Source: an uncultured delta proteobacterium (GTDB lineage Bacteria; Myxococcota_A; Polyangia; Polyangiales; Polyangiaceae). From it: a DNA stretch of 64,000 nucleotides. A model generated the notes under the pieces. The model made no database searches. It was not told where the DNA came from and saw nothing but the letters and a program-made list of their open reading frames with translations. The position numbers and the translations under genes were made by a program. Positions 137-8,174 of the stretch are shown here, piece after piece (the stretch's first letter is position 1; each line of letters opens with the position of its first letter). The stretch is from the NCBI GenBank assembly GCA_903906315.1, contig CAIVJW010000095.1, positions 1 through 64,000 of the forward strand, given 5' to 3'.

Positions 137-580
137 CTAGAGCTTCATCCCCTTGGCGACTTCAACCGTGGCGTCCGTATTGGCAAGGTGCGCCAGGTGC
201 CCGAGCAGGTACTCCTTCACGCTCGCCTCGAGCTCGTCGAGCGCCGCTTCGTGGCCGAACGCGGCCGCAAAGGCGTGAATCGTCCCGCGCTCGGCGTCGC
301 TGGTGTGACCATCTGCCCACGCGAGCAGCAGAGCCGTCTTGAGGAAGAGCAGCCGGACGTCGTCGCTCGGGAGCAACGCGGAAAGCTCCCCCGCCTCGAT
401 GGCCGGGCGCCGCTCGAGCTCGGCGAGCGCCGCCGCGCCGCCCCCGACGTCGGCCCAGAAGGAGGCCACGAGGGCCGCCTCCCGCTCGTGAAGCCCGTCG
501 CACTTCGCCACGGCGAACAGCCCCCGCGCGATGGCCTCTGCCTGGGTGGTGTCGAGCGCGATCTCAGGTGAGAAGCTCAT
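137..580 (-). CDS. TerB-like (tellurite resistance B family) helical protein
   Basis: A 147-residue, acidic, all-helical protein. The segment from about residue 10 to 130 has the TerB/DjlA-N look: 'CDGLHEREAAL' near the start and 'LLLAWADGHTSDAERGTIHAFA' split over its middle, i.e. paired Asp-x-x-x-x-x-Glu motifs of the kind that bind metal in TerB. The ATG at 580 was chosen over an upstream in-frame ATG at 712 because GAAGGAGAC lies just before it and the extension would run into the intergenic region. It is the last gene of the eight-gene minus-strand operon, 73 bases after the AAA+ ATPase gene. TerB proteins act in the cytoplasm near membranes in Ter stress systems; the exact role here is inferred only from its neighbours. 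Confidence 0.72.
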   Translation of the reverse strand: MSFSPEIALDTTQAEAIARGLFAVAKCDGLHEREAALVASFWADVGGGAAALAELERRPAIEAGELSALLPSDDVRLLFLKTALLLAWADGHTSDAERGTIHAFAAAFGHEAALDELEASVKEYLLGHLAHLANTDATVEVAKGMKL

Positions 581-653
581 GTGTCCGTCTCCTTCTTCGA
601 CATCGATGGGGTATGCGGGAACGTCCGGCGCGTCGCCAAGTCCGCGGCGGCGG

Positions 654-2519
654 TCAACGGCGATTGCCGCACTCGGCCTTGCGCAGCGCAAGCCTGGCCT
701 GAAGCTCGTCAATCGAAAGATCCGCGTACTTCTTGGGCAGCATCCGCCGATTCGAGGCCTCGAATACCGCGAGCAGCTCCATGTACTCGATCATGGCCAC
801 GTCTCGCGAGGGCAGGTAGTCACCGACGGCAGTCGCGAGGTCCGCCGCCCCGAGCACCGCGTCCTGCCCGCGCAGCGCGCACGCCTGCTCCGCGGCCGAC
901 AGGACGATCGCCTCGATGTCTGCGTTGGAGTAGCCGAGCACGGCGCTGGTGATCGCGGGGTCGATCGGCGAGGGCAGGTCGCAGGCGACCTTCGCCTTCC
1001 GGAACTGCGCCCGAAAGATGCGCTCCACCTCGTCGACCGTCTGCGCGTAGAGAAACGGGATCTTGCGATCGAGCCGGCCCGCGCGCTTGATGTCGATGTC
1101 GAGCTTGTCGGGCCGGTTGGTCATCAGGATGAACAGGACGCGGCCCCGGTTGCCCGTGTCGCTCATGAACTCCTTGATTCGCCCGATGACTCGCGAGGAG
1201 GTGCCCCCGTCGCCGTCCCCGTCACCGCCGCCGAACGCACGGTCGCCCTCGTCGATGATGACGAGCACCTGCCCTATCGCCTGCACGACGTTCAGGATGC
1301 GCTCGAGGTTGCCTTCGGTCGCTCCGACCCACTTCGACCGGAAGTTCTTGAGCTTGATCGTCGTGAGCCCGCTCTCCTTCGCGAACGCCTCCGCGACGAA
1401 CGTCTTGCCCGTGCCCATAGGCCCCGTGAAGAGCATGCCCATCGGGCAGCGCGCCCGGCGCCCCTCGCGCATGTTCTCGGCGATGACGCCGAGCTCGCGC
1501 TTGACCTCTTCGAGCCCCCCGACGACCTCGAAGCCGTGCTTCGACTCGACGAACTCGATGAGCCCGAAGCACTCGCGCTCGATGATCTCGCGCTTGCGAG
1601 CCGCCACCAGCCGGTCAATCTCTGCGCGTGAGTCCTCGCTCCGGGCGGGCGCGACGCCGTCCGGCGCGATGAGCTTCTTGATCTCGTCGCGCGACATCCC
1701 CTTCGTGATCGAGGCGAGCTTCTGCGCCCGCGCGGTCGTCTGAGCGTCGGCGCTCGCCCCCGCCGCGAGGAGGTCCGTCACGTAGCGCGCGCGATCCTCG
1801 TCGTCGTCGCCGGACTCGGCCGGCGTGAGGATCGACGTGAGCTGGATGCTCTTCAGGCCCGCGGTGATCTCGGCGAGCCGCTCGACGTCGGCGGCGGCGA
1901 GCGACGGGTCGGCGAACCGGACGACGAGCTCGCGCTCCTCCTTGTTCGGCATGGGCACGCGCACCGTGGCCACGCGCGGATTCGACACCACCTTCGGGTG
2001 CAGGTCCGAGAGGTTCTCGACCACGAGCACGATGACCGAGTCCGAGCGCTCGAGAGTCCGCAGGAGCGACCACCGGTGCAGCGTGACGACCGCCGCCCGA
2101 TCGTCTTGCGTCGAGAACGAGGTGTCGCCCGCCGGCGCGATCGTGTCGGCGTACTCGAGCACGACGGCGATCCGGTCGTTCGTCGTCAGCGCTCGCTCGA
2201 GCAGCGGGAGCACCTTCGCGGGGTCACGCTGGCCCACGAGGTCGTCGAGCCCGGTCGCGCCCGCCTTGCGCTTGGCGAACCGGACGCCCGTCGACACGTT
2301 GTAAAGGACGACCGTGTCTTTGGTCCTCGCGAAGAGCACCTCGGACAGGAACTCCGTCGCGCTGTGGAGCTTGCCCTCGTGGAGCACGACGTCGTGCACG
2401 TTGCCGTGCAGGACGAATTGGGACGACTCCCCCCGCAGGTAGCGCCGCTTCAGGTCCTCGCACCAGGAGGGGAGCTTCGCGTCCGGGACCGCTGCCGCGC
2501 TCGTCGTCTCTTGCACCAT
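654..2519 (-). CDS. AAA+ ATPase with degenerate N-terminal ATPase-like domain (Ycf46/Vps4-like core)
   Basis: A 621-residue protein. Residues about 1-310 resemble a degenerate, Ycf46-type ATPase domain without a P-loop; phrases such as '[16 protein letters not shown]' resemble a Walker B region. Residues about 335-560 are a classical AAA module: Walker A GPMGTGKT with Lys372, a pore-loop/[10 protein letters not shown] segment, Walker B ending IIDEGD, sensor-1 LMTNRPD and an Arg-finger region RAGRLDRK. The C-terminus is helical. Such ATPases thread or disassemble protein complexes in the cytoplasm. The start is an ATG at 2519 with GTG codons on either side, 10 bases after the preceding gene. 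Its operon partners include PspA, an ESCRT-III-fold protein, which makes a Vps4-like disassembly role attractive, but no MIT domain is evident and this is inference. Confidence 0.85.
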
Positions 2520-2529
2520 CACGCCTCCC

Positions 2530-6716: not shown

Positions 6717-6764
6717 GGTCTCTCCGTACCTTCCGGCCCTCGTGCGGGGGGGCCTTCGCCGCGA

Positions 6765-7472
6765 CTACATCGTCTTGGTTGAGGCCTTCTTGGCGGCCGA
6801 GGCGGCCTTGAGCTGCGCGAGCTGTTGCTTGGCCGTGACGTCGCCGGAGGCCTGACGGAGCGCGGCCAGCCGCGTGTCGAGCTCGCTCGACTTGAGCTCC
6901 TGCCCGAGGTTTGCCTCCGCGACCGCGTTCTTGATGTGCGTCCGCACGTTGTCGAGGGCCTTGATCTCGGCGTCGACCGAGAGGCCGTCGAGCTGCTCGT
7001 TGATGCGCATTCGCGCCTGCGCGTTCGCCATCTTGGCGATCATCGTGTCCTTCTCCGCCTGCAGCTTGCGGATCTCGGACTGGACGTTGACGAGCGCGCT
7101 CTTGGCGCTGTCCGCGTCCTTCTGCGCGACGTCGAGCTCGGCCTTCAGGTCGCCCACCTCGGCCTCGAGGGCGGCCTTTTTCTGGAGCAGGATCACGGCA
7201 AGGTCGTCCTGCGAGGTCTCGACCGCGACGTTGAGCTCGGCCTCGACCTGAGCGAGCTCCTTGCTCCGGGCGGCGTAGCGCTCCGACAGCTCCTCGCGGC
7301 GCCGGATGATCGCGGCCGTCGCCTTCTTCAGCTGCGCGTATTTCCCGACCATCGCACCGATGGCGTTTTCATACGCGATCTCGGGGTGCTCCTTCTCTAT
7401 GTCGGAAATCCACAAGCTCACGAAGCCCTTCCAGAGATTGCCCAACCTGGCGAAGATCCCGCTCGACATCAT
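6765..7472 (-). CDS. PspA/IM30 family membrane-remodelling protein
   Basis: A 235-residue, almost entirely coiled-coil protein with the PspA/IM30 layout: a short amphipathic N-terminus ([18 protein letters not shown]) followed by long heptad-rich helices ('[19 protein letters not shown]'), ending in an Ala/Lys tail. PspA proteins belong to the ESCRT-III superfamily, bind stressed inner membranes and assemble into rods or rings. The gene is second in the operon, 21 bases after its first gene. In the classical Psp system PspA partners the AAA+ activator PspF; here the AAA+ partner encoded in the same operon is of a different, Ycf46/Vps4-like class. An adjacent Met codon is possible at the start (MM). 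Confidence 0.85.
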
Positions 7473-7493
7473 TGGCTCCTTGGTCGCGCGTCG

Positions 7494-8174
7494 CTAGCGC
7501 GGCGCGATGAGCTTCGGCGACTGCTCGACCACGCGGGCGATCGCCTCTTGCCCGAAGAACTCCAGCACCTGCTGCACGCGGAGCTTCTCCGCGTTACAGG
7601 TCAACGCGAGCTTGCGCTGCTCTCCGACCTGCTGCTCCATCAGGGCGCGGACGGCCGCGATCTCGGCGCTCAGCTGCTCGATACGCGTCGTCGACTCACC
7701 GAGCAGGCTTTGCGTGTCACGCTCGCCGTGCTGGGTGTAGGCCTCGAGTGCCTGGATTTGCTGCGCGCCGGCCTCGATGATCTGGTCGACCGGAATGCCG
7801 AACGCCGCGAGGGAGGCCTCGACGATGCGCTTCTTGATCTCGCGAGGCGCCTCCGCCGGCAGCGTCCCGAGCAGCGCGACCGCCTTCTCGACGCGCTGCT
7901 GCTCCTCGAGCGTGATCTCCGCCGCGCGGTAGACGGCCGGAAAGTCGACCACGCCGCCCTCCGCCCTCGGCAGGTCGCCCGTGAGCGCTGGCGCCGCGGG
8001 AGCGGTCGCGCGCTCTGCGGGCGAGGGCGCCGGCGGCGAGGGCGCGTCCTCCGCATACTTGGCGATCAGCTCGTGCGCCGTCTGATCGGCGCTCGGCTCC
8101 GGCGCAGCGTCGTTGTCTTCGTCGACGACGAACCACCCGAGTACGGTCTTGCCCAACCCCTTCTTCGCGGTCAC
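7494..8174 (-). CDS. Helical protein of unknown function, first gene of the PspA/ABC operon
   Basis: A 226-residue protein with a short basic N-terminus, a Pro/Ala-rich linker (about 25-75) and a helical C-terminal two thirds with coiled-coil character ('EESTTRIEQLSAEIAAVRALM'-like heptads near 160-185). No signal peptide or membrane segment is visible, so it is probably cytoplasmic. The GTG start at 8174 is supported by GGAGGG eight bases upstream and a TAGGGT hexamer farther up. It is not a family I recognise. Its position as first gene, 21 bases before pspA, suggests a PspA partner. Confidence 0.7.
   Translation of the reverse strand: MTAKKGLGKTVLGWFVVDEDNDAAPEPSADQTAHELIAKYAEDAPSPPAPSPAERATAPAAPALTGDLPRAEGGVVDFPAVYRAAEITLEEQQRVEKAVALLGTLPAEAPREIKKRIVEASLAAFGIPVDQIIEAGAQQIQALEAYTQHGERDTQSLLGESTTRIEQLSAEIAAVRALMEQQVGEQRKLALTCNAEKLRVQQVLEFFGQEAIARVVEQSPKLIAPR

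Follow-up and report, generated by a model that had tools for sequence, protein, structure and literature searches.

A PspA-AAA+ operon coupled to a wall-anchored ABC importer in Myxococcota and Acidobacteriota, with a near-invariant tripeptide tail on its PspA

Can a membrane-remodeling protein, an ATPase, and a solute importer encoded side by side form one machine? This question is raised by an operon of an uncultured delta proteobacterium of the Polyangiaceae (Myxococcota; GenBank assembly GCA_903906315.1, contig CAIVJW010000095.1). The window (i.e., the whole stretch of 64,000 nucleotides that was analyzed) starts at contig base 1 and carries eight co-directional minus-strand genes, here named A to H, running from position 8174 to position 137. 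They encode a putative helical adaptor (A), a PspA/IM30 protein (B), the binding protein, permease, and ATPase of an ATP-binding cassette (ABC) importer (C, D, and E), a helical protein with hydrophobic segments (F), an AAA+ ATPase (G), and a TerB-like protein (H). PspA and Vipp1 have come to be recognized as bacterial members of the endosomal sorting complex required for transport (ESCRT)-III family, and the disassembly of their polymers is an open question. The contig ends beside H, so our view stops at that gene.

Gene order and distribution

We scanned 84,980 genomes with an alignment of the AAA+ protein and obtained 68 loci, which is a lower bound because exact peptide patterns were used. 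All were metagenome assemblies of Myxococcota or Acidobacteriota, save one labelled as a beta-proteobacterium. Gene families in these loci were assigned using iterated hidden Markov models of the eight window proteins against six-frame open reading frames (ORFs), and contiguous same-strand clusters were counted. The order A-B-C-D-E-F-G was contiguous and co-directional in 29 of the 68 loci (7 from Myxococcota and 22 from Acidobacteriota). An earlier description of the window (the sequence-only reading) had proposed that these genes form one system whose order would recur in other genomes. This was borne out, with the A-to-G order kept in two phyla, and the gene set is neither confined to one strain nor scattered elsewhere. 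The eight co-directional genes that it had placed between 8174 and 137 were all found there, and five of the seven junctions are tight, as it had counted, overlapping or lying within about 20 bases (read from the sequence, A/B, +21; B/C, +48; C/D, -4; D/E, -8; E/F, -4; F/G, +10; and G/H, +73 bases). After A to H were masked, no other ORF family was common to more than six of the 68 loci; thus, conservation extends to the operon as a unit but not to its flanks.

In a tree of the AAA+ proteins, Myxococcota and Acidobacteriota were separated (support, 100/99), and the closest relatives of the window protein came from Polyangiaceae assemblies (Myxococcota). Full-length matches to this protein were present in 9 of 379 Myxococcota genomes, and strong matches to its N-terminal domain were present in about 8 of 297 Acidobacteriota genomes. 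The distribution of the system is sporadic.

The PspA tail and the AAA+ ATPase

Gene B (7472 to 6765, minus strand; 235 residues) encodes a PspA/IM30 protein of the ESCRT-III superfamily. It matched PF04012 (PspA_IM30) at 70.6 bits (cut-off, 33.9; E value, 1.9e-19), and its profile, over positions 1 to 223, matched the solved Vipp1/PspA polymers 8qfv, 6zvr, and 7o3w with E values down to 9.5e-15. The protein ends in the tripeptide K-T-M (codons at 6768 to 6776, minus strand), and a C-terminal K/R-[TS]-[MLV] was found in all 45 PspA proteins of the system (34 KTM, 5 KSM, 3 KTL, 1 KTV, 1 RTM, and 1 KSL). An Ala/Gln/Lys-rich linker, variable in sequence and length, precedes the motif; the entropies of the last three positions were 0.61, 0.53, and 0.16 bits, and those of the preceding 22 positions were about 1 to 2.5 bits. 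Among control PspA copies from the same phyla that were read to their stop codons and do not lie beside this AAA+, the terminal motif occurred in none of 43, the two further PspA copies of the window genome included. Left out of the controls were three in-system copies (L200, L205, and L206, all ending in KTM), one masked read, two edge-cut copies, and the PspA of L195, which does not end in the motif and is followed, about 1.2 kb downstream, by a relative of this AAA+. In L144, an additional PspA copy adjoining such a relative ends in KSL, and L037 and L038, whose AAA+ is strongly diverged, have a different PspA tail in common, GKGGIG. We infer from this pattern that the tail is a short handle for recognition by the AAA+.

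Internal motifs were also observed. Five Acidobacteriota PspA proteins (L194, L195, L202, L203, and L204) carry K/R-[TSE]-[LM]-G-P near, not at, the C terminus, which is possibly a second version of the handle. A very diverged PspA in L148 carries an internal K-D-L-G-P close to its C terminus.

Gene G (2519 to 654, minus strand; 621 residues) encodes an AAA+ ATPase with an intact Cdc48/Vps4-type AAA domain at residues 330 to 560 (Pfam AAA, 87.9 bits; cut-off, 21.2) and a conserved C-terminal tail domain beyond it. All classical AAA features are present (Walker A and B, arginine fingers, and an aromatic pore loop), as GPMGTGKT (Walker A), DEGD (Walker B), the sensor-1 Asn, KRAGRLDR (arginine-finger region), and KWVG (pore loop 1); nearly all of these C-terminal motifs were conserved in >90% of 59 sequences. 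The solved relatives of the domain are Cdc48/p97 D2 and similar structures, and the label "Ycf46-like" given to G in the sequence-only reading was not established. No Pfam family matched the N-terminal 300 residues of G, no MIT domain was found in the protein among Pfam matches at E values up to 1, and a profile comparison of the N-terminal half with the protein's own C-terminal AAA domain gave no match. Residues 1 to 300 are probably a degenerate AAA domain. Relatives of the C-terminal AAA domain (E value, <1e-50) occurred in 97 of the 379 Myxococcota genomes, many with another N terminus, and the operon was absent beside most of those relatives whose surroundings were fetched. About a quarter of the sampled Myxococcota genomes contain a close relative of this domain, mostly with a different N-terminal part, and in L140 to L143 none of the operon's partners were detected beside a G-type AAA domain.

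Co-divergence was evaluated using Spearman correlations of protein distance matrices for sets of 24 sequences. PspA and AAA+ distances correlated at 0.83, and those of C, D, E, and F correlated mutually at 0.79 to 0.87; when the outlier L061 was left out, all pairs among C to G reached 0.73 to 0.89, and the PspA-AAA+ value was 0.84. The AAA+-driven turnover of PspA suggested in the sequence-only reading is supported indirectly: the AAA+ is intact and its pore loop is of the Cdc48/Vps4 type, PspA and AAA+ co-diverge (0.83 to 0.84), and the near-invariant tail is seen only beside this AAA+. PspA is fairly likely to be a substrate of G. PspA would polymerize on the cytoplasmic membrane, at its inner surface, and G, presumably as a hexamer, would grip the exposed K-T-M tail and thread or unfold subunits from the polymer, providing ATP-driven recycling of the kind that Vps4 provides for ESCRT-III. 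The product of gene A may serve as an adaptor on the PspA/AAA+ side.

The core genes, the importer, and rival explanations

The importer does not always accompany PspA and the AAA+. These two were encoded without any transporter in L066 (A-B-G) and in L073, L084, L094, L103, and L105 (B-G, H present or absent); L047, L064, and L107 likewise have no transporter but do have F. Three further loci (L061, L065, and L090) have genes of the A-to-G families in other orders (B-G-C-D-E-F-A, A-B-G-C-D-E, and B-C-D-E-F-A-G) and another transporter type, with C proteins 22 to 25% identical to that of the window; their binding domains matched no substrate-binding protein (SBP) family, and the N-terminal anchor and OmpA domain were retained. 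Because of these transporter-less loci and transporter swaps, the stable part of the system is A, B, and G, and the importer with F is a frequent but exchangeable partner. In the distant loci L037 and L038, A, B, C, and G adjoin, C has a transmembrane (TM)-SBP-like-OmpA architecture, and no permease or ATPase lies within the cluster. L038 also holds, at 1757 to 4751 of that locus, a second NMT1-type binding protein without OmpA together with a permease and an ATPase, convergent to an A-B-C-G-H cluster that has no permease of its own. In three distant Myxococcota loci (L145, L148, and L149), an SBP-OmpA importer, a very diverged F, and an AAA+ domain lie near each other.

Gene C (6716 to 5058, minus strand; 552 residues) combines an N-terminal membrane anchor, an NMT1/SsuA-type binding domain (NMT1, 46.9 bits; cut-off, 20.5), and a C-terminal OmpA domain (PF00691, 66.1 bits; cut-off, 27.2). 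Its N terminus, MKLTPFAK followed by about 18 hydrophobic residues, is strongly conserved, has no lipobox, and reads as an inner-membrane anchor. In the OmpA domain, D483 is nearly invariant and R498, 15 residues away, is invariant; the domain thereby keeps the Asp/Arg pair that binds diaminopimelate, as in Acinetobacter baumannii OmpA. Like MotB, the gene C product would link the inner membrane to the peptidoglycan. Gene D (5061 to 4150, minus strand; 303 residues) encodes a TauC/SsuC-type permease (BPD_transp_1, PF00528, 71.3 bits; cut-off, 26.4; E value, 1.1e-19), and gene E (4157 to 3315, minus strand; 280 residues) encodes a TauB/SaoA-type ATPase with intact Walker A, signature, and Walker B motifs (ABC_tran, PF00005, 113.9 bits; cut-off, 25; E value, 1.1e-32). 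The three proteins resemble TauABC, SsuABC, and NrtABC in their permease, ATPase, and NMT1/SsuA-type binding domain, but differ in that all subunits score below the equivalog cut-offs (TauA, 60.7 bits against 304; TauB, 218 against 357; and TauC, 157 against 342) and in the TM anchor and OmpA domain of the binding protein. As for the ligand, the NCBIfam models for NMT1/SsuA, urea-carboxylase-associated, and taurine proteins were tried and all scored below their cut-offs, no riboswitch or other RNA family was found in the window, and no metabolic gene was conserved beside the operon in the 68 loci. The constant feature of the importer partner is a peptidoglycan-anchored binding protein, not one particular ligand.

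In its commonest form, the proposed recycling module is joined to an ABC importer, with a binding protein anchored in both the inner membrane and the peptidoglycan. The importer and F may mark or hold the site of PspA action, or they may be the complex whose surrounding membrane PspA stabilizes. We give an even chance to this explanation as a whole, i.e., an ESCRT-like membrane-remodeling module in which the AAA+ recycles PspA by its tail and the importer is site or cargo. A different role for the importer was favored in the sequence-only reading, in which a ligand sensed at the wall-anchored binding protein would control PspA assembly and its AAA+-driven turnover. As developed here, the ABC complex and F would relay the solute signal to either process and so turn an envelope response on or off. 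A sensor of this kind is expected to depend on binding rather than transport, which agrees with L037, where A, B, and G are accompanied by the TM-SBP-OmpA protein and no permease or ATPase of this family was detected nearby, and with a binding domain that varies as the rest is kept. However, the ATPase and permease of the main form have the usual motifs, score above the Pfam cut-offs, and probably transport; several lineages retain the PspA-AAA+ core but have no binding protein at all; and no transcription regulator is conserved in the neighborhood of the 68 loci. We regard the sensor as unlikely: since the core occurs without a transporter and the ligand-binding domain varies among loci, ligand sensing is at most an optional input.

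A still less probable alternative is quality control of the importer, in which the AAA+ and PspA would assemble or extract the ABC transporter and F, with PspA polymer turnover secondary. Co-divergence was strongest between F and the AAA+ (0.89 without L061; 0.70 within Acidobacteriota), and SBP-OmpA importers of several dissimilar kinds accompany the AAA+, as this alternative would have it, but PspA-AAA+ pairs exist without C to F, and the conserved tail sits on PspA. Equally improbable is the view that envelope-stress and nutrient genes are merely expressed together and kept together by joint transfer, with no joint machine; the sporadic distribution described above speaks for it, but the AAA+ tree follows phylum without mixing, the same families reassemble in other orders with a different importer type (L061 and L090), and the PspA tail tracks the AAA+ type.

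The gene A family (8174 to 7494, minus strand; 226 residues, GTG start) was found in 38 of the 68 loci. Its members have a conserved N-terminal hydrophobic motif, KTVLGWFVV, followed by a linker and a helical domain in which one helix is about 80 residues long, and an AlphaFold2 model (mean predicted local distance difference test [pLDDT] score, 86.1) shows a disordered N terminus and then the helical domain. Protein A matched no Pfam family above its cut-off and no solved fold significantly, and had no profile similarity to PspA; weak Pfam matches to Mod_r/Vps37 (12 of 30 members; best E value, 5.6e-4) and to HSP33 look like coiled-coil chance. The gene F family (3318 to 2530, minus strand; 262 residues, with a GTG start at 3318 overlapping the E stop) was found in 46 of the 68 loci. 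The protein has two short hydrophobic helices, modeled as a hairpin at residues 19 to 54, and then a helical bundle (mean pLDDT, 84.5), and it gave neither a Pfam match nor a significant solved-fold match. The idea that it is an ESCRT-III protein gained no support (PspA profile match, 0.1% probability; best Foldseek E value, 0.06). Alignments of its residues 115 to 262 with many BAR/F-BAR domains (VIA-align) gave Z scores of about 9 to 11, below the 13 that is meaningful for helical matches, and serve as a lead only.

Gene H (580 to 137, minus strand; 147 residues) was present in all 7 Myxococcota loci with the contiguous A-to-G order and in none of the 22 Acidobacteriota loci with that order. 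Another Myxococcota locus, L044, has the rotated order G-H-A-B-C-D-E-F, and in total H was detected in 20 loci, of Myxococcota only; the TerB gene is a Myxococcota addition to the operon. The window protein scored 20.1 bits against TerB (PF05099), under the cut-off of 24.4, whereas all 17 family members matched (best E value, 3.9e-10), and it keeps the repeated acidic D-G...E motif of TerB. Of the parts named in the sequence-only reading, PspA, NMT1 with OmpA, the permease, the ABC ATPase, and the AAA domain stood above their Pfam cut-offs, and TerB in the window protein alone did not. That reading placed TerB proteins in Ter stress systems. TerB does not link the operon to the Ter (tellurite) systems, as no conserved gene besides A to G accompanies H; H is the likeness to those systems, but no TerC- or TerD-type gene is among the eight genes or conserved nearby in the 68 loci, with the contig ending beside H in the window. 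This add-on may have a regulatory role in response to metals or stress.

The region immediately upstream of the operon carries, also in minus-strand orientation (8390 to 11292), genes for an EmrA-like adaptor and an EmrB-type DHA2 efflux permease (441 bits; cut-off, 230), a pair that is not conserved beside the operon in other loci. They are followed (11367 to 14140, plus strand) by genes for a GltD-like NAD(P)-binding subunit and the PreA subunit of NAD-dependent dihydropyrimidine dehydrogenase (642.8 bits; cut-off, 335).

Weight of the evidence and relation to known systems

Several points weigh against an ESCRT-like module in which G recycles PspA. A protease, the gene A product, or TerB could be what reads the tail instead, and shared descent contributes to its conservation among related PspA proteins. 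The distance correlations are partly common phylogeny and support joint inheritance, not contact; within Acidobacteriota alone, the PspA-AAA+ value drops to 0.56, below F-G (0.70) and A-B (0.71). In some loci, G is found without detected partners. The profile of the N-terminal half of G gave weak in-register matches (E values, 0.05 to 1) to AAA lid regions only, in proteasome-activating nucleotidases and a proteasomal ATPase. The operon promoter likely lies in the 215-base gap 5' of gene A (8175 to 8389, minus strand), a site placed from its position only, and a promoter and terminator scan of the operon gave nothing above chance, with no sigma-70-like site found. We infer each physical interaction in the proposed scheme, as well as the use of the tail as an AAA+ handle and the importer's role for PspA.

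The sequence-only reading regarded the parts of the operon as normally belonging to different systems. This combination had already been published: the main text of Ravi et al. 2024 (mSystems, PMC11237479) describes PspA/Snf7-AAA+ operons with an ABC ATPase, a permease, and a PBPB-OmpA protein (e.g., OGG56892.1), an AAA+ with a proposed inactive N-terminal AAA copy, and a TM-containing partner called an Snf7 homologue. The window operon belongs to this described kind, with PspA, AAA+, ABC ATPase, permease, a solute- and peptidoglycan-binding PBPB-OmpA protein, and a TM partner in one operon, and the weak N-terminal match of G fits the published inactive AAA copy, short of proof. That paper calls its TM partner an Snf7 homologue, whereas F, with its hydrophobic helix hairpin, has no detectable profile or fold similarity to PspA. 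The main text of PMC11237479 mentions no TerB, PspA C-terminal tail, or core-and-cassette pattern, and we found no gene-A-like gene in this setting there; relative to that text, the PspA tail, the added TerB gene, and the A-B-G core with an exchangeable importer cassette are new.

Like the eukaryotic and archaeal ESCRT-III/Vps4 systems (CdvB/CdvC in the latter), the operon encodes an ESCRT-III-fold polymer protein together with a classical-type AAA+ ATPase; the pore loop KWVG of G resembles that of Vps4/Cdc48, and the polymer protein bears a short conserved C-terminal motif. It differs in having no MIT domain or MIM-type (MIT-interacting) motif, in an AAA+ N terminus that is probably a degenerate AAA domain, and in its coupling to an importer. 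That the K-[TS]-M tail is the bacterial counterpart of ESCRT-III MIM motifs, a handle by which a dedicated Cdc48/Vps4-like AAA+ extracts PspA from membrane polymers, is a tentative proposal, and we see the balance as tipped slightly against it. With the canonical phage shock protein (Psp) response (PspF-PspABC of Escherichia coli), the operon shares PspA, but PspB, PspC, and PspF are absent from the eight genes and from conserved neighbors, and G is not an enhancer-binding protein. A precedent for the proposed tail is chloroplast VIPP1, whose C-terminal tail recruits the Hsc70 ATPase that disassembles it, according to the title of a paper (Li et al. 2025) listed among the references of PMC13051332. 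In both cases, the tail of a PspA-family protein would recruit a disassembly ATPase, but that pair involves an Hsp70 and a long tail and ours an AAA+ and a tripeptide.

Recent structural work (PMC11746142) discusses chaperones or PspF "in analogy to Vps4," with no dedicated ATPase named there. The locus described here offers a dedicated candidate ATPase for PspA disassembly and a proposed three-residue recognition tail, both of which lend themselves to an in vitro test that needs only two proteins. A further implication is that remodeling of the membrane can form a single unit with solute import at a site anchored to the wall. If the tail is indeed the counterpart of the MIM motifs, these bacteria would possess a full ESCRT-III/AAA+ pair, mechanically tied to the peptidoglycan via a wall-anchored importer.

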